Positions 2,454 to 18,867 of a stretch of DNA of 64,000 nt are shown in pieces. The DNA comes from Rhodanobacter sp. Lineage in GTDB: Bacteria > Pseudomonadota > Gammaproteobacteria > Xanthomonadales > Rhodanobacteraceae. A program made the translations under genes and the position numbers. Where the stretch lies: NCBI GenBank assembly GCA_024711345.1, contig JANJTA010000005.1, positions 1-64,000 on the forward strand, written 5' to 3'. Numbering within the stretch: position 1 is the first letter of the stretch; the number at the start of each line of letters is the position of its first letter. The notes beneath the pieces are model-generated. The model did not search any database and was not told the origin of the DNA. It saw only the letters and a list, made by a program, of their open reading frames with translations.

Positions 2454-3965
2454 CTACAGGCCCGACACCTGCGGCATGCGCAGGCGCACCAGCCGGTTCG
2501 CCAGCTGCAGTTCCCACGGCCGGTCGTAGCGGCGGAAGCGGTAACGCCAGCCGGCCAGCGCGCTCAGGTTGCGCTTGGCCCACGGCGGCGCGCGCAGGTC
2601 CTGCACGGTGGGGTAGCGGCAGCGCAGCACGGTGACGAAGTCGTTGATGCGCTGGCGCAGCTTGTCGCTGAGCCACGGCGCGTCGACGTGGCAGGCGTAG
2701 TGCACCCAGCGCGGCTCGGTCCATTCGTCCGGCGTGCGCGGGAACACCACCGGCGCGCCGTCGAGGTCGCGCAGCGGCGCGCCCGGTCGCTTGCGGCGGT
2801 CCTGCTCGTGGCGGCTGTGCTCCGGCAGCGGCGTGTAGACGTAGATGACGATCTCGGTCTGCGGGTTGATCCGCTTCAGCTCGCGGATGAACTCGAAGGT
2901 GCGCTCGGTTTCTTCCTCGGTGTGCTCCGGCGGCGCGACCATGAACGACAGCTCGGGGATCACCCCGTAGCGGCGGCACTGCTCGACCACCGCCAGGGTC
3001 TGGTCCGGCCGCGTGCCCTTGCGGATGTCGTGCAGCATCTGGTCGCTGGGCGACTCGGCGCCGATGTAGGCCATGCGCAGCCGGCTCTTGCGCACCAGCT
3101 CCCACGAGCGCTCGGACAGGTTCAGCAGCGCGTCGGCGCGGGCGAAGCACCACCATGGCAGTTCGAAGCGGGCCATCACCTCGAGCAGCGGCACCATGTC
3201 CGCCTCGCGGTCGAAGAAGTTGTGGTCGAAGTACTGCACCGAGTCGGCGCCCAACGTATGCTTGAGGTAGCCGAGCTCGCGTTCGAGCCGCGCGGCGGCC
3301 GGCAGGAAGGTGGCGCCGCCGAACATCGCGGCCACGCCGCAGAAGGTGCAGTGGTAGCGGCAGCCGATCGCCGCCTGGTGCGCCACCGTGCGCTGGCCGA
3401 GGTAGGTGCGCGCCAGGTAGCGGCGCGGATCGCCGAGCTTGTCGTACGGCAGCAGCCCCGCGGGATCGTGGCGCACGATGCGGCGGGCCGGGTTGTGCAC
3501 CACCGTGCCGGCGTTCTTCCAGGACAGCCCGGCGATCTGCTCCAGCGCCGGGCCGCCGTGGCCGCTCAGCGTGGCGACCAGTTCCGACAAGGTGTCCTCG
3601 CCCTGCGCGCGGACCGCGTAGTCGACGTAGGGTGCGGCCAGCGTGGCGTCGGTGTGCAGGGTCGGGAAGTAGCCGCCCCAGACGATCGGCAGCGTCGGCT
3701 GGCGTGCGCGGATCGCCTTGGACACGGCGATCGCCGGCGCCACCTGCGGCCCGCCCATCACGCCGATGCCGACCACGTCGTAGCGCTCGCGTTCGAGCGC
3801 GCGCAGGGTGTCGGCGACGAAGTCGCGGTCCACGTTGCCGTCGATGATGCGGCTCTCGCCGTGGCGGTCCAGCGCCGCGGCCAGGTGCAGCAGCGCCAGC
3901 GGGAAGCGCGCGCTGTGGCGCGAGGTGATGGTGGGGTTGATCAGCAAGGTGCGCGGAGCGGTCAT
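2454..3965 (-). CDS. B12-binding-domain radical SAM protein
   Basis: A 503-residue enzyme. The N-terminal region (about 1-140) looks like a Rossmann-type cobalamin-binding domain (LLINPTITSRHSARFPLALL, then VVGIGVMGGPQ and VWGGYFPTLH). The radical SAM core has CRYHCTFC, the CX3CX2C cluster ligands at about C202, C206 and C209. Proteins of this layout do SAM radical chemistry such as methylation of unactivated carbons or ring rearrangements. ATG at 3965 is chosen over an upstream TTG because the B12-domain start MTAPRTLLINP aligns there. It lies between two glycosyltransferases and a methyltransferase, so a role in modifying a sugar or lipid carrier is likely. The substrate is unknown, and no clear DxHxxG cobalamin-ligand motif is visible. 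Confidence 0.86.
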   Translation of the reverse strand: MTAPRTLLINPTITSRHSARFPLALLHLAAALDRHGESRIIDGNVDRDFVADTLRALERERYDVVGIGVMGGPQVAPAIAVSKAIRARQPTLPIVWGGYFPTLHTDATLAAPYVDYAVRAQGEDTLSELVATLSGHGGPALEQIAGLSWKNAGTVVHNPARRIVRHDPAGLLPYDKLGDPRRYLARTYLGQRTVAHQAAIGCRYHCTFCGVAAMFGGATFLPAAARLERELGYLKHTLGADSVQYFDHNFFDREADMVPLLEVMARFELPWWCFARADALLNLSERSWELVRKSRLRMAYIGAESPSDQMLHDIRKGTRPDQTLAVVEQCRRYGVIPELSFMVAPPEHTEEETERTFEFIRELKRINPQTEIVIYVYTPLPEHSRHEQDRRKRPGAPLRDLDGAPVVFPRTPDEWTEPRWVHYACHVDAPWLSDKLRQRINDFVTVLRCRYPTVQDLRAPPWAKRNLSALAGWRYRFRRYDRPWELQLANRLVRLRMPQVSGL

Positions 3966-3989
3966 GGCAGGGCCTGCAGGCAAGTGGCG

Positions 3990-14033: not shown

Positions 14034-14699
14034 TCACAGCCTCACGTCGAGGCTGGACTTGCCGGGCAGCGCGCGCGCCGGCGAGCCGACGTAGACGCGG
14101 CCCGGCTCGGTGTCGCGGGTGACCAGCGCGCCGGCGCCGATCACGTTGTCGGCGGCGACTTTCACGTGGTCGTTGAAGGTGCTGTTCACCCCCACGAAGC
14201 TGCTCTGGCCGATCTCGCAGTAGCCGGAAATGACCGCGTGCGAGGCGACGAACACGTGGTCGTGCACCGCCGTGCGGTGGCCCACGTGGTTGCCGCTCCA
14301 CAGGATGCAGTTGTTGCCGATGCGCACGAACGGCTGCACCACGTTGCCTTCGAAGATGAAGCTGTTCTCGCCCAGCTCGGCGTTGCGCCACACGAAGGCG
14401 CGCGAGCTGACGTAGCTGGCGAGCCGGTAGCCGCGGCGCTTCGCGTCGAGGTAGAAGCGCGTGCGCAGGCGGTTGAGCTGGCTGGCCGGGATGGCGACGA
14501 ACGCGTCGAACGCATCCGGCGGGTAGCGTTCTTCCAGCGTCTCGTAGGCCACCACCGGCCGGCCGGCCAGCTGCGGCTGCGCGAGATACTCGCGCTCGAC
14601 GCTGAAGGCAGCCACGTCGCGGTCGCCGTCGTGCTCGAAGTACTCGCAGGCGATCTGCGCGAACTCGCCCGCGCCGATGAGGACTAGAGGCTTTGGCAT
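14034..14699 (-). CDS. Hexapeptide-repeat sugar N-acetyltransferase (PglD/NeuD/FdtC-like)
   Basis: A 221-residue acyltransferase with an N-terminal Rossmann-like domain (PLVLIGAGEFAQIACEYF) and a C-terminal left-handed beta-helix built of hexapeptide repeats from about residue 100, ending GAGALVTRDTEPG and VYVGSPARALPGK. This is the NeuD/PglD architecture. Beside FdtA- and FdtB-like genes it probably N-acetylates the 3-amino group using acetyl-CoA. It overlaps the ketoisomerase gene by 16 bases. A role as O-acetyltransferase cannot be excluded. Confidence 0.83.
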   Translation of the reverse strand: MPKPLVLIGAGEFAQIACEYFEHDGDRDVAAFSVEREYLAQPQLAGRPVVAYETLEERYPPDAFDAFVAIPASQLNRLRTRFYLDAKRRGYRLASYVSSRAFVWRNAELGENSFIFEGNVVQPFVRIGNNCILWSGNHVGHRTAVHDHVFVASHAVISGYCEIGQSSFVGVNSTFNDHVKVAADNVIGAGALVTRDTEPGRVYVGSPARALPGKSSLDVRL

Positions 14700-15121
14700 G
14701 CGGCCAGGCCCTCCGCGTAGACCGGTCCGCGGACCTCGCGCAGGAAGGCGGCGTAGTCGGTGATGTAGTCGGCCGGGTCGTACAGGTGGTCGGCCAGCAC
14801 CATCAGCACGCAGTCTTCACTGAAGTCGTACAGCTCGCGCCACACCATGCTGCCCAGGTGCAGGCCGTAGGACGGGTCGTCGAGCACCACCTGCACCGGA
14901 CCGGTGCCGTCGTCCAGCAGGAAGGTGACCGAGCCGCGCACCGCCACCGCCAGCTGGTTGAGATGGCGGTGCGCGTGCCGGCCACGGCGCACGCCGTCGC
15001 AAGTGGCGAACAGGTAGTACACGCGCCGGATCACGAACGGCACGTTGCGGTCCTGTTCCAGCGCGATCAGCATGCCGCGGCTATCGCCGTGCTTCTGCAA
15101 CGGGATGCGTTCGATTTCCAT
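14684..15121 (-). CDS. fdtA: dTDP-6-deoxy-3,4-keto-hexulose isomerase-like (FdtA/QdtA, WxcM family)
   Basis: A 145-residue cupin-fold sugar 3,4-ketoisomerase. DSRGMLIALEQ and the RRGRHAHRHLNQLAV block carry the histidine pair (about H49 and H51) that matches the catalytic pair of FdtA. It would convert dTDP-4-keto-6-deoxyglucose to the 3-keto isomer for the FdtB-like transaminase. The length fits the family (about 135-145). It is the first gene of the minus-strand polysaccharide operon, so the promoter should lie in 15122-15497. FdtA and QdtA differ in C4 stereochemistry and cannot be told apart here. Confidence 0.85.
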   Translation of the reverse strand: MEIERIPLQKHGDSRGMLIALEQDRNVPFVIRRVYYLFATCDGVRRGRHAHRHLNQLAVAVRGSVTFLLDDGTGPVQVVLDDPSYGLHLGSMVWRELYDFSEDCVLMVLADHLYDPADYITDYAAFLREVRGPVYAEGLAACQSL

Positions 15122-15497
15122 GTTCCGGGCCCGGCAGTGATGTCGAGGGAGGACCGACCTGTCTGGGTGCCGCCCGGCGCGCGAAAGGTTGCGGCGGGAA
15201 CCTCGCCGGGCGGCAGCGACTCCGATGCCATGCGGACGGCACCGGTGGCGGCCGCGCCGGACTCGCGGCGGCTACCTTGCGACCCTGCATCCATGACATG
15301 CTCTGGCCAACGCAGCACGACACACATTTCCCGCGCCTTCCCGCCCGGGTTGGCGCGAACGCCGCCGGCATCCACCCTGGCCGTTTCATCACGCACCGAT
15401 GGGCTCGAGCTCACTCTGGCAGGCAGCACGGGACCCCGCCGCACCCCCGCTTCCGGTGCGCCGCGGCAGGTACCGCACGCCTGCGGCCGAGGCGCCG
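15122..15497. other. Divergent intergenic region, promoter of the polysaccharide locus
   Basis: These 376 bases separate the first minus-strand glycan gene from the plus-strand outer-membrane protein gene. No convincing gene is seen; the short open frames here lack coding character or a ribosome site. It must hold the promoter for a roughly 15 kb operon and one for the plus-strand gene, but no clear -35/-10 or sigma-54 element was recognisable in this GC-rich stretch. Confidence 0.5.
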
Positions 15498-16289
15498 ATG
15501 ACGCGGCCGCCGGCGCGTCCCGCGCGCGGCAGCTGGACCCGGCGCGGCGCGTTCGCGCTGCTGCTCGCCGCGGCCGGCCCGGCGCTGCACGCGCAGGTGG
15601 CCTTCAACGGTGCGGCCGCGCTCAGCTCGCAACTGGTGGACCGCGGTCAGGCGATGACCCCGGCCACGCCGATCCTGCAAGGCGCCGCCTCCTGGACTTT
15701 CCCGGCCGGCTGGTCGCTGGGCCTGTCCGGCAGCACGCGGCTGCGTTCGCCGGGCCGGCTGGTGGCGGCGCTGGCGCAGGCCTCGCGGCACTGGGCGCTG
15801 GCCGGCGACTGGCAGATGCAGGCGAACCTGCTTTATTACCGCTACGAAGGCAGCGCGCGCTCGCGCGCCTTCGACCGCGCCGAAACCGGGCTGAGCTGGA
15901 GCTGGCGCGACGTGCTCACCGTCGGCGTGTCGGCGATCCACGTGATCGGCGGGCGGAACCGCCTGCGCGGCGCCGCGGACGCCAGCGTGCAGTGGCCGCT
16001 GACGCGCGGGTTTTCGCTGTCCGCCGGCGCGGGCATCGCGCAGGCGCCGATCGCGGCCTACGCCAGCTACGGCTATGACCGCCCGGGCCGCTCCGAGTAC
16101 CCCCGCACCGGCAGCTACCGCCACCGCCCGCCGGCGGACTTCCAGCGCTACGGCCACCTCGGCCTGCTGTGGAGCCACGGCCCCTGGCGGGTGGAAGGCC
16201 AGCGCATCCTGGCCGACCCGCACACGCGCCCGTCATGGGGCGGCATCCACGCTTCGCCGTGGGTGCTCACCGTCTCGCGCTCGTTCTGA
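15498..16289 (+). CDS. Exported outer-membrane-type protein (TIGR02001/TorF-like)
   Basis: A 263-residue protein. The N-terminus has an arginine-rich start and hydrophobic signal sequence ending in an AXA-type site (LHA before QVAFNG). The mature part alternates short amphipathic strands, for example GAAALSSQLVDRGQAM, AASWTFPAGWSLGLSG and RAETGLSWSWRDVLTVGV, and ends in an aromatic residue (SRSF), as outer-membrane barrels do. It resembles the TIGR02001 family by the early strand pattern. ATG 15498 is preferred over an upstream start because only this gives a signal peptide at the N-terminus. It is followed by the ECF sigma operon after 78 bases. Substrate and role are unknown. Confidence 0.68.
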   Translation: MTRPPARPARGSWTRRGAFALLLAAAGPALHAQVAFNGAAALSSQLVDRGQAMTPATPILQGAASWTFPAGWSLGLSGSTRLRSPGRLVAALAQASRHWALAGDWQMQANLLYYRYEGSARSRAFDRAETGLSWSWRDVLTVGVSAIHVIGGRNRLRGAADASVQWPLTRGFSLSAGAGIAQAPIAAYASYGYDRPGRSEYPRTGSYRHRPPADFQRYGHLGLLWSHGPWRVEGQRILADPHTRPSWGGIHASPWVLTVSRSF

Positions 16290-16367
16290 CCCGGAGGCAA
16301 CCTTTCCGCACCGACGCGGCACCCATCCGGCAACCCGGCACCGTCCCTCGACCCAGGCGAGGATCCC

Positions 16368-16952
16368 ATGCACGACGACGATCTCGACTCCGACGTCACC
16401 GACCGCCTGCTGCTGCAGCGCATGGCGAACGGTGATCGTGCCGCCCTGGGCATCCTGTATCGCAGCTACCACGGCCGGCTGTGCCGCTTCCTGGGCCGCC
16501 TGACCCGCCGCCCCGAGGTCATCGAGGAAGTCATCAACGACTGCTTCTGGATCGCCTGGCAGAAGGCCGGCAGCTTCCACGGCGACTCGCGCGTCTCCAC
16601 CTGGCTGATGGGCATCGCCTACCGCAGCGGGCTGAAGACCCTGCGCCAGCATGGCGACGCCCCGGTCGAGGACGATCCCCGGCGCGAGGAGCGCAGCGCC
16701 GCCCACGACCTGGACGAGGACCGCGAACTGCGCGACTGGCTGAGCAAGGGGCTCGACCGCCTGTCGGCGGACCAGCGCGTGGTGATCGAACTGGTCTACG
16801 GCGTGGGGCACAGCCTGGACGAGGTGGCCGTGATCATGCAGTGTCCGGTGGGCACGGTGAAGGCGCGCCTGTTCCATGCGCGGGTCAAGCTACGCAACGT
16901 GTTGCCGGGTCTGGCCGGCGAGCCGCCCCAACGCACCGAGGCCATGCCATGA
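16368..16952 (+). CDS. ECF-type RNA polymerase sigma factor
   Basis: A 194-residue sigma-70-family protein of ECF type. Region 2 (about 25-95) has LGILYRSYHGRLCRFLGRLT, VINDCFWIAWQKAGSF and VSTWLMGIAYRSGL. Region 4 (about 135-180) has LSADQRVVIELVYGVGHSL and the helix-turn-helix end VGTVKARLFHARVKLR. The stop overlaps the anti-sigma ATG by 4 bases, so the two are translationally coupled. It would direct transcription of its own operon and other targets when released from the anti-sigma. The inducing signal is unknown; the subtilase downstream suggests an envelope signal. Confidence 0.93.
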   Translation: MHDDDLDSDVTDRLLLQRMANGDRAALGILYRSYHGRLCRFLGRLTRRPEVIEEVINDCFWIAWQKAGSFHGDSRVSTWLMGIAYRSGLKTLRQHGDAPVEDDPRREERSAAHDLDEDRELRDWLSKGLDRLSADQRVVIELVYGVGHSLDEVAVIMQCPVGTVKARLFHARVKLRNVLPGLAGEPPQRTEAMP

Positions 16953-17581
16953 CGTTTCCGATGGATTCCGGCAAGGACTGCGTCCGCGCCTGGGAAATGA
17001 TGCCGTGGGTGCTGCAGGACAGCGCCACGGCGGAACAGGGCGCGTGGCTGGAAGGCCACCTGGCGCAATGCGCGGCCTGCCGGGCGGAGTTCGCCCAGCA
17101 GAGCCGCCTGCGGCTGGCGCTGTCGCTGCCGGCGCAGCCGGCGCCGGACGTCGAGGCCGGGCTGGGCCGCCTGCTGCAGCGCCTCGACGCACCCGCGGCG
17201 ACGCCGGCTCCGGCGCGTGCGCGCGCAGCCGGCTGGCTCAACCGCGCGCTGGTCGCCGCGGTGCTGGTGCAGGCGCTCGGCATCGGCATCCTCGGCGTGA
17301 AGCTGTGGTCGGCGGGCAGCGCACCCGCCTATCGCACGCTGAGCGAACCCAGCCAGGGCGCGCCGGCGGGGACGATCCGGGTGGTGCCCGACGCCGGCAT
17401 GACGCTGGCCGACTGGAACGCGCTGCTGCATGCGCTGCGGCTGCAGGTGGTGGCCGGCCCCAACGACGTCGGCGCCTACACGGTGGCGCCGGCGAGTTCC
17501 GCCTCGACCGCGCAGCAGGCGCTGCAGCAGCTGCGCAGCACGCGCGGCATCGTGCTGGCGGAGCCCGTCGCCACGCCATGA
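16949..17581 (+). CDS. Membrane anti-sigma factor, zinc-finger N-domain and I9-like periplasmic domain
   Basis: A 210-residue single-pass protein. The cytoplasmic part (1-95) has the zf-HC2/ZAS-type HX3CX2C (about H37, C41, C44) plus C11, which would clamp the ECF sigma factor. One membrane helix lies at about 99-119 (ALVAAVLVQALGIGILGVKL). The periplasmic domain (141-210) reads GTIRVVPDAGMTLADWNALL, later LQQLRSTRGIVLAEPV, a beta-alpha-beta pattern like the I9-type propeptide of subtilases. The next gene is a lipoprotein subtilase with a similar prodomain, so the periplasmic domain may be its partner or substrate. Start and stop overlap both neighbours by 4 bases. Confidence 0.85.
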   Translation: MTFPMDSGKDCVRAWEMMPWVLQDSATAEQGAWLEGHLAQCAACRAEFAQQSRLRLALSLPAQPAPDVEAGLGRLLQRLDAPAATPAPARARAAGWLNRALVAAVLVQALGIGILGVKLWSAGSAPAYRTLSEPSQGAPAGTIRVVPDAGMTLADWNALLHALRLQVVAGPNDVGAYTVAPASSASTAQQALQQLRSTRGIVLAEPVATP

Positions 17582-18867
17582 AGCGCGGCCTGCCCGTGGT
17601 TCTCATGGCGCTCGCGCTGGCCGCGTGCGCGTCCACCCCGCCGCGAGCCGGCGCCGGCCCGGGCAGTACGACGGCCGGCGGCGTGACCGCGATGGACAGC
17701 CAGCGCGACATCATCCTGGCGGTCGCCAACCCGCTGCAGCCGCCGCCGATCCACGCCGGCTCCAGCGTGCTCGGCTACGCCCCGTCGCGCTACTACGGCG
17801 CCGGCCAGCAGGCGGCCTCGACCCTGGCCGCGCTGCGCCAGCGCTACGCCTTCCGCGAGCTCGCCGGCTGGCCGATCAAGGCGCTCAAGCTGTACTGCAT
17901 CGTGCTGCAGCCGCCGCCGGGCACCAGCCGCGACAGCCTGTTGCAGGCGCTCGCCGCGGACCGCCGCGTGCAGCTGGCGCAGCCGCTGCACGACTACGCC
18001 GTGTACGCGCAAGCCAGCCCCGGCGAGCACCGGTACAACGACCCCTACGTCGGCCTGCAGCGCGGCTTCGTCGAGACCGAGGCGGCGCGCGCGCATCGCT
18101 ACAGCGAGGGCCGCGGAGTGCGCGTGGCGGTGGTCGACACCGGCGTCGACCTGACCCACCCCGACCTCGCCGGGCGCATCCACGACGCGCACAACCTGGT
18201 CGACGACGACGCCGCGGCGTTCGACCGCGACAGCCACGGCACCGAGGTCGCCGGCGTCATCGCCGCGGTCGGCGACAACCACCTGGGCATCGTCGGCATC
18301 GCCCCCCAGGCCGAGCTCAGCGTGTACAAGGCCTGCTGGTACCCGCCTGCGCCGAACGCCGGCGCGCGCTGCAACTCCTTCACCCTGGCCAAGGCGCTGG
18401 CCGCGGTCATCGACACCGACGACCGCATCATCAACCTGAGCCTCGGCGGCCCCGCCGACCCGCTGCTCGACCTGCTGCTGGTGCAGATCCTGCAGCAGGG
18501 CCGCATCGTGGTCGCCGCGATCCCGCCGGAGGGCGGCATGGCGGGTTTCCCCGACAGCACGCCCGGCGTGCTGCTGGTCAGGGAGAGCGGCCCGTCGGCG
18601 GCGCCGCCCGGCGTGCTCAGCGCGCCCGGCCGCGACATCCTGACCACCCAGCCCGGCGGCGGCTACGACTTCACCTCCGGGCCGTCGATGGCCGCGCCGC
18701 ACGTGAGCGGCATGGCCGCCTTGCTGCTGTCGCTGGCGCCGGGGCTGGATGCGCAGGCGATCCGCAACCTGCTGCTGCGCGGCAGCCGGCGCCACGGCGA
18801 CGTGCTGCAGGTGGACGCCGCCGCCGCGGTGAATGCGCTGCGCCAGGCGCGAGGCACCGCCCGCTGA
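17578..18867 (+). CDS. Lipoprotein subtilisin-like serine protease (S8)
   Basis: A 429-residue S8 peptidase with a lipobox (LALAACAS, Cys at about 18), so it is probably anchored in the outer or inner membrane facing the periplasm. A prodomain-like region spans about 95-145 (LKLYCIVLQPPPGTSRD, then DRRVQLAQPLHDYAVYA). The catalytic triad is visible: D187 (VVDTGVDLTHPD), H220 (DSHGTEVAGVIA) and S370 (TSGPSMAAPHVSG). The usual AAGN oxyanion-hole motif is replaced by VVAAIPPEGG, so activity may be altered. Its ATG overlaps the anti-sigma stop (ATGA). It may process the anti-sigma factor or sense misfolded envelope proteins. Confidence 0.87.
   Translation: MKRGLPVVLMALALAACASTPPRAGAGPGSTTAGGVTAMDSQRDIILAVANPLQPPPIHAGSSVLGYAPSRYYGAGQQAASTLAALRQRYAFRELAGWPIKALKLYCIVLQPPPGTSRDSLLQALAADRRVQLAQPLHDYAVYAQASPGEHRYNDPYVGLQRGFVETEAARAHRYSEGRGVRVAVVDTGVDLTHPDLAGRIHDAHNLVDDDAAAFDRDSHGTEVAGVIAAVGDNHLGIVGIAPQAELSVYKACWYPPAPNAGARCNSFTLAKALAAVIDTDDRIINLSLGGPADPLLDLLLVQILQQGRIVVAAIPPEGGMAGFPDSTPGVLLVRESGPSAAPPGVLSAPGRDILTTQPGGGYDFTSGPSMAAPHVSGMAALLLSLAPGLDAQAIRNLLLRGSRRHGDVLQVDAAAAVNALRQARGTAR

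Follow-up and report, generated by a model that had tools for sequence, protein, structure and literature searches.

An anti-sigma factor with a prodomain-like outer domain is linked to a neighbouring subtilase in Rhodanobacter and other bacteria

Sigma factor, anti-sigma factor and subtilase genes

In a 64,000-nucleotide stretch of Rhodanobacter sp. DNA (contig JANJTA010000005.1, positions 1 to 64,000; hereafter the window), consecutive plus-strand genes encode an extracytoplasmic function (ECF) sigma factor, a membrane anti-sigma factor and a subtilase of family S8 (Table 1). Judging by sequence profiles and predicted structure, the outer part of the anti-sigma factor resembles a copy of the subtilase prodomain. 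The positions, the strand and the two 4-base overlaps (each ATGA) in a preliminary description of this DNA proved correct, although its wording of a 'fused' signalling operon did not hold, because the genes merely overlap and do not encode one fused protein.

In the first protein Pfam finds just sigma-70 regions 2 and 4, as in ECF sigma factors. The anti-sigma factor begins with a zinc anti-sigma (ZAS) domain that combines the HxxxCxxC motif with a helix bundle and in which H37, C41 and C44 are invariant; zf-HC2 falls slightly below its cut-off in the window protein, yet it matches 74/74 relatives at E ≤ 0.1, and this part of the AlphaFold model has fold matches to MucA and RsiW. The transmembrane helix is followed by a linker (residues 121–142), disordered by prediction, and by the tail that the preliminary description had placed at 17369–17581, which is indeed residues 141–210 plus the stop codon. 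The anti-sigma factor of R. thiooxydans is 94% identical to that of the window. In total the genome encodes three S8 proteins, and it has one M50 match (5.7e-70), a site-2 protease of the RseP type. Cys17 of the subtilase is conserved at ≥90% in 66 close relatives; a lipoprotein anchor was rejected as a trait of the whole family, being by eye not retained in L031, L032, L035 and L037.

Table 1 Features of the locus, in window coordinates
Feature	Position	Strand	Evidence
ECF sigma factor, 194 amino acids	16368..16952	+	Pfam Sigma70_r4_2 5.6e-12, Sigma70_r2 1.1e-9
Membrane anti-sigma factor, 210 amino acids	16949..17581	+	
ZAS domain, residues ~10-60, H37-x3-C41-x2-C44	16976..17128	+	zf-HC2 20.3 bits (cut-off 22.2)
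Transmembrane helix, residues 98-120	17240..17308	+	Helix in AlphaFold model; hydrophobic stretch
Juxtamembrane motif Y128 R T L S132, proposed site-1 cleavage L131↓S132	17330..17344	+	3.20 bits per column
Prodomain-like domain, anti-sigma residues 143-207	17375..17569	+	
Subtilase, family S8, 429 amino acids, lipoprotein-type signal with Cys17	17578..18867	+	Peptidase_S8 7.4e-32; AlphaFold mean pLDDT (predicted local distance difference test) 86.3
Subtilase's own prodomain, residues ~43-137	17704..17988	+	AlphaFold model: same strand/helix order as anti-sigma domain
Subtilase prodomain/mature junction Y140 A V Y143↓A144	17995..18009	+	Cleavage predicted from subtilisin pattern
Catalytic domain, residues ~151-423; D187, H220, S370 present, P317 at oxyanion asparagine	18028..18846	+	
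Putative ECF-type promoter of the trio, GCAACCTTT-N12-CGGCAC	16297..16322	+	Exact match
Second motif copy, 46 bases before FdtA-like gene	15167..15192	-	Exact match
FdtA/WxcM-like gene, first of putative target cluster	14684..15121	-	PF05523 2e-45
TorF-like putative porin	15498..16289	+	TIGR02001 3e-7, 30.2 bits (cut-off 47.15)

The outer domain of the anti-sigma factor resembles subtilase prodomains

The tail of the anti-sigma factor is predicted to adopt a beta-alpha-beta-beta-alpha-beta fold. Both stretches quoted in the preliminary description are present, LQQLRSTRGIVLAEPV in the anti-sigma factor (residues 192–207, ending at 17569) and LQALAADRRVQLAQPL in the subtilase, and in the AlphaFold models each forms helix 2 and strand 4 of one fold, so the shared pattern noted there stands. 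Comparison of profiles and of AlphaFold monomers found the similarity between the domains both in profile scores and in predicted fold, with two amendments: the subtilase prodomain spans residues ~43–137 and not 95–145, and the proposed I9 propeptide fold holds as a prodomain-type fold and profile but not as Inhibitor_I9. That Pfam model gave no match at E ≤ 1 to either window protein and was dropped as the family, and an I9 match for comparison was obtained in 1/60 genomes; the nearer family PF22148 (Fervidolysin N-terminal prodomain) was therefore used instead.

Aligned with PF22148 prodomains, the anti-sigma domain scored 52.0 in hhalign (probability 97.2; 64/70 columns), a score reached by 0/150 shuffles (maximum 15.7); against the 97.2 an HMA control gave 5.7, and the value stays at 97.2 after the window genus is dropped. 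With the subtilase's own prodomain it scored 24.3 (probability 46.9; maximum of 150 column shuffles 16.3), and the own prodomain matched PF22148 at 92.0, limited to 29 columns. PF22148 is the sole Pfam family besides zf-HC2 to match more than three anti-sigma members (11/74 and 9/58; 11/74 relatives at E ≤ 0.1, best match E 3.1e-5), and in the window anti-sigma factor itself Pfam lists zf-HC2 alone, without PF22148. Foldseek found no PDB match to the prodomain-like fold at E ≤ 0.001 and ranked prosubtilisin fifth (E 0.081, probability 1.00), which by itself is insufficient to settle the fold; the POIA1 structures 1itp and 1v5i were also listed in the structure searches. The profile similarity extends beyond a shared fold. 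That the likeness reflects a generic ferredoxin-like fold and chance, with the subtilase gene no more than one of the sigma factor's ordinary targets, is a reading to which we give hardly any credence: generic fold alone is rejected by the profile scores and shuffles, and the linkage and site tests described below contradict it as well.

A strand-4 glutamate (the E205 column) is kept in 53/58 anti-sigma factors and 14/18 canonical prodomains, and the subtilases' own prodomains have glutamine there in 71/76. In the subtilisin prodomain this glutamate caps surface helices of the enzyme. The anti-sigma chain ends 4 to 13 residues past this column. One reading of the glutamate pattern is that the anti-sigma domain acts in trans as an inhibitor or folding helper, that the protease is the output of the system and that the pair balances protease and sigma activity without any cutting of the anti-sigma factor; along its whole length the domain is similar to canonical prodomains, the own prodomain is so over 29 columns only, and I9 inhibitors that stand alone are known, POIA1 among them. 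We regard this reading as quite improbable, as it leaves unexplained the resemblance of the YRTLS motif, described below, to the cutting site of the protease.

Linkage of the anti-sigma domain and the subtilase

In bacteria of widely different groups the anti-sigma domain and the subtilase are tightly linked. Among 60 related genomes, 23 had anti-sigma matches at E ≤ 0.001; all 20 strong matches (genus orthologues, the window included) carry sigma factor, anti-sigma factor and subtilase together, as does the distant match L021, and the four weakest matches (L022–L025) are without the trio. Wider anti-sigma searches (12/398, 29/289 and 52/369 genomes) returned a mix of full-length and zinc-domain-only matches. 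In 40 larger loci taken for full-length matches, a subtilase adjoins in 32 (31 downstream on the same strand and 1, L110, on the opposite strand), 5 are without one and 3 are unjudgeable because the sequence ends (L125, L128, L131), and none of 18 zinc-domain-only loci (L053, L055–L071) has a subtilase within 1.5 kb.

A reverse search of named genomes by the subtilase alone gave 404 loci, the best 80 of which come from Tahibacter, Dokdonella, Dyella, Luteibacter, Xanthomonas, Paraburkholderia, Acidovorax, Duganella, Nitrosomonas and Methylobacter and also from metagenome bins labelled Acidobacteriota, Verrucomicrobia and Eremiobacteraeota. An anti-sigma factor with the C-terminal domain lies upstream of the subtilase in 72 of these 80, including one at ~1.2 kb spacing (L202) and one decayed copy (L224); the remaining 8 include three contig ends (L181, L206, L249) and three loci with sigma and anti-sigma genes elsewhere in the locus (L192, L235 and L254, the domain model itself having no match in L254). 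The decayed copy, from Rhodanobacter sp. OK091, is a second copy with the subtilase intact and in frame, an anti-sigma remnant and no sigma factor found. Elsewhere, L117, L118, L121 and L132 have no subtilase within at least 5.7 kb downstream of the anti-sigma gene, and carbamoyl-phosphate synthase genes, named by sequence, come next in the first three; in L129 (genome G947) a caspase-like gene, named from sequence with no family search run, overlaps the end of an anti-sigma gene with the same domain.

A juxtamembrane motif resembles the subtilase junction

The linker contains a conserved island, YRTLS, that the preliminary description had not reported and that, by sequence, resembles the subtilase's own prodomain/mature junction. 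Conservation at Y128–S132 contrasts with 1.16 bits per column before the island and 1.30 after it, and among 58 anti-sigma factors the first position is aromatic in 58, T130 is kept in 51, L131 in 53, and S, T, G or A occupies position 132 in all 58. In 76 proteases the junction, which follows strand 4, has F or Y at P4 (76/76), then any residue, V or T (63), Y, L, M or F at P1 (57) and A, S or G at P1' (70). A matrix built leave-one-out from the protease junctions and scored on ~92 windows per anti-sigma factor ranked the YRTLS-type motif first in 55/58; none of 119 reordered matrices reached this figure (best 43), and among 391 protease windows tried as matrix source the junction was the best (runner-up 35). 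Juxtamembrane scores of at least 3 occurred in 52/58 protease-linked vs 2/28 zinc-only anti-sigma factors, 15 of the latter 28 having a clear membrane helix. In orphan anti-sigma factors the motif is lost (L117, L132) or partly kept (YSVVA in L118, YSMLN in L121).

The two sites also co-vary in part. The subtilases fall into subfamily A, which includes the window protein, and subfamily B, whose register was taken from automatic alignments; junction–motif similarity was higher in cognate than in shuffled pairs in A (9.39 vs 7.57, n = 49, p < 5e-5) and in B (8.19 vs 3.38, n = 21, p 5e-5), and the junction ranked 1/376 (A) and 1/222 (B) among protease windows, both by similarity and by z. Junction/motif pairs in B include FRPAG/YQPAG (L126), YRPMG/YQPLG (L120) and LEAAS/LVAAS (L103). 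The signal in A is carried by P2 and P1', and by cognate similarity alone the motif of A comes first in 25/49. The co-variation is still present when pairs are thinned to below 60% identity (n = 28, p 1.5e-4). Within these limits of co-variation and ranking, the linker site fits the protease as the substrate of a site-1 protease would. The preliminary pairing of a subtilase with an anti-sigma factor carrying a propeptide-like domain is thus upheld by profile, predicted fold and tight linkage, with one correction: the likely cut site lies in the linker and not in the domain.

Active site of the subtilase

The Asp-His-Ser triad is kept in 76/76 subfamily A proteins. The oxyanion asparagine, kept in 23/23 subfamily B proteins and 7/7 unrelated controls, is replaced by P, A, D, K, R or E in 34/34 subfamily A proteins (one of which, L036, is a truncated copy of L139); across all 76, none has Asn in the oxyanion column, 2 have gaps, and 10 have Asn one column later, which may reflect a shifted loop. 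The loss, at 18526–18528 in the window, thus runs through a widespread subfamily that retains its triad. Subtilisin that has lost this asparagine is still active but some hundredfold slower, so the window subtilase may be slow. A dead pseudoprotease is not favoured, given the invariant triad and the conserved junction.

The main rival to cutting of the anti-sigma factor is a protective role like that of RseB/MucB, in which the subtilase would shield the anti-sigma factor from another site-1 protease (for example DegS) until a signal displaced it, its catalysis serving only its own maturation. The absence of the asparagine from 76/76 subfamily A proteins would suit such a role, as would the gene order, which is that of rpoE-rseA-rseB (sigma factor, anti-sigma factor, periplasmic partner), and the end of the anti-sigma chain just past the E205 column, which resembles the end of a cleaved prodomain, like a bound product. 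We nevertheless consider it unlikely, because the triad and the protease's own junction are conserved, the asparagine is retained throughout subfamily B, and the repeat of the cutting site in the linker is left unexplained.

Promoter motif and neighbouring genes

The putative promoter of the trio, labelled GGCAACCTTT, is one of two exact full-motif copies in the window, against 0.01 expected. Across the genus the GCAACCTT core lies upstream of the sigma gene in 20/20 loci and the -10-like part, GGYAC, in 17/20; the core resembles the SigW -35 box ATTGAAACCTTT (PMC8103513). In five relatives (L290, L292, L293, L295, L298) an exact site lies before fdtA, and near sites lie upstream of an ABC exporter in four loci. 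Among the matches listed, same-genus relatives have exact sites in 7/7 cases with the trio and 0/4 without it. With one mismatch allowed, the motif was overall not above a reversed control over 37 genomes (12 vs 11 in the window genome), and the signal is confined to exact motif sites beside the trio. In L289, L291, L294 and L296 the same motif heads a weak HPr-kinase-like gene and an ABC exporter at least ~20 kb from the trio, and of L290 and L298, one has divergent copies heading a gene for a multihaem cytochrome c and the other has them heading a gene for a cytochrome b561.

The FdtA-like gene is followed on the minus strand by polysaccharide genes for a NeuD-like acetyltransferase, a DegT aminotransferase, a Wzx flippase and a Wzz protein; a radical SAM protein with a B12-binding domain is encoded within this cluster (2454–3983). 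The TorF-like putative porin, whose place in the system is uncertain, sits between the two promoter copies, and L032 encodes a similar protein, identified by eye, next to the trio and divergent from it.

Discussion

The prodomain-like domain and the copy of the cutting site in the anti-sigma factor suggest that the subtilase releases the sigma factor, and we think it probable, with considerable reserve, that the trio is a regulated-proteolysis switch in which a dedicated subtilase is the site-1 protease of an anti-sigma factor that mimics its pro-region. As we infer from sequence, the ECF sigma factor would be held by the membrane-bound zinc anti-sigma factor, which outside the cytoplasm would present first the linker with its copy of the cutting site (YRTLS) and then the prodomain copy; the subtilase, its own prodomain removed, would dock on the prodomain-like domain as on a prodomain and cut the linker at YRTL↓S next to the membrane (site 1), and RseP would complete proteolysis, freeing the sigma factor.

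Several observations weigh against this proposal. The missing oxyanion asparagine in subfamily A argues for weak catalysis. No co-variation is seen at P1, the main determinant in subtilisins (p 0.24 and 0.11), where the window protease has Tyr and its anti-sigma factor Leu; after thinning below 50% identity the co-variation is lost (n = 11, p 0.26, z rank 132/387), so that shared descent may account for part of it, and in subfamily B the motif comes first in 11/21 by matrix and in 11/21 by cognate similarity. The site precedes the domain in the anti-sigma factor and follows the prodomain in the protease, which means that a loop of 7–17 residues would have to reach the active site. Linkage has exceptions too: four anti-sigma factors have the domain but no subtilase close by (L117, L118, L121, L132), a caspase-like gene takes the subtilase's place in L129, and subtilase loci L190 and L226 show no anti-sigma factor.

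A more elaborate and tentative version, which we would call possible and not probable, makes regulated proteolysis a prodomain swap: the anti-sigma factor would be a rearranged mimic (site first, prodomain second), the own prodomain and the anti-sigma factor would compete for one surface, and in subfamily A the loss of the oxyanion asparagine would have made the enzyme a slow signalling protease of few turnovers. Bacteria would then have a counterpart of the site-1 and site-2 proteases (S1P and S2P) of mammals. As the protease, the proposed docking domain and the proposed cutting site can be read from sequence from Rhodanobacter to Duganella, point mutations can test the mechanism.

Comparison with known systems

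No description of such an anti-sigma factor and subtilase pair was found in the open-access literature searched. Few systems are known for how a signal from outside the inner membrane selects one anti-sigma factor for cutting, and the identified bacterial site-1 proteases named in a review (DegS, DegP, SipS, SipT and Prc; PMC7593790) include no subtilase. The nearest parallel in layout is RseA-RseB-DegS-RseP with sigma-E, and likewise AlgU-MucA-MucB-AlgW, in which an ECF sigma factor, a membrane anti-sigma factor and a periplasmic partner share one operon and site-1 cleavage precedes site-2 cleavage, as we propose here; the zinc-domain model also resembles MucA. The Rhodanobacter system differs in that the partner is a subtilase instead of the LolA-like RseB or an HtrA protease, and in that the anti-sigma factor has a prodomain-like domain. 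Prodomains of PF22148 and Inhibitor_I9, stand-alone POIA1 included, share fold, profile and a chain end just past strand 4 with this domain, which differs from them in sitting on an anti-sigma factor with the membrane helix joined at its N-terminal side.

Subtilases have other links to signalling. ECF54 neighbourhoods contain subtilase, CHAT and carboxypeptidase genes, and ECF54 is described as having no anti-sigma factor (PMC8999054); the subtilase is a common feature, and the anti-sigma factor sets the present locus apart from ECF54. CspB, CspBA and CspC of clostridial spores are likewise S8 proteins in signalling, some without full catalysis, and differ in having neither an anti-sigma factor nor a membrane substrate. 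The closest likeness in the proposed order of cuts is the mammalian pathway in which S1P (SKI-1), a subtilase, and then S2P, an M50 protease, cut the sterol regulatory element-binding protein (SREBP) (PMC8019017). That pathway differs in being eukaryotic and in that its substrate is the transcription factor itself. The processing sites of S1P itself resemble its substrates, and we know of no prodomain-like domain in SREBP. If the proposed mechanism is true, the trio would be a bacterial parallel of the S1P–S2P pathway and a ready-made orthogonal switch.
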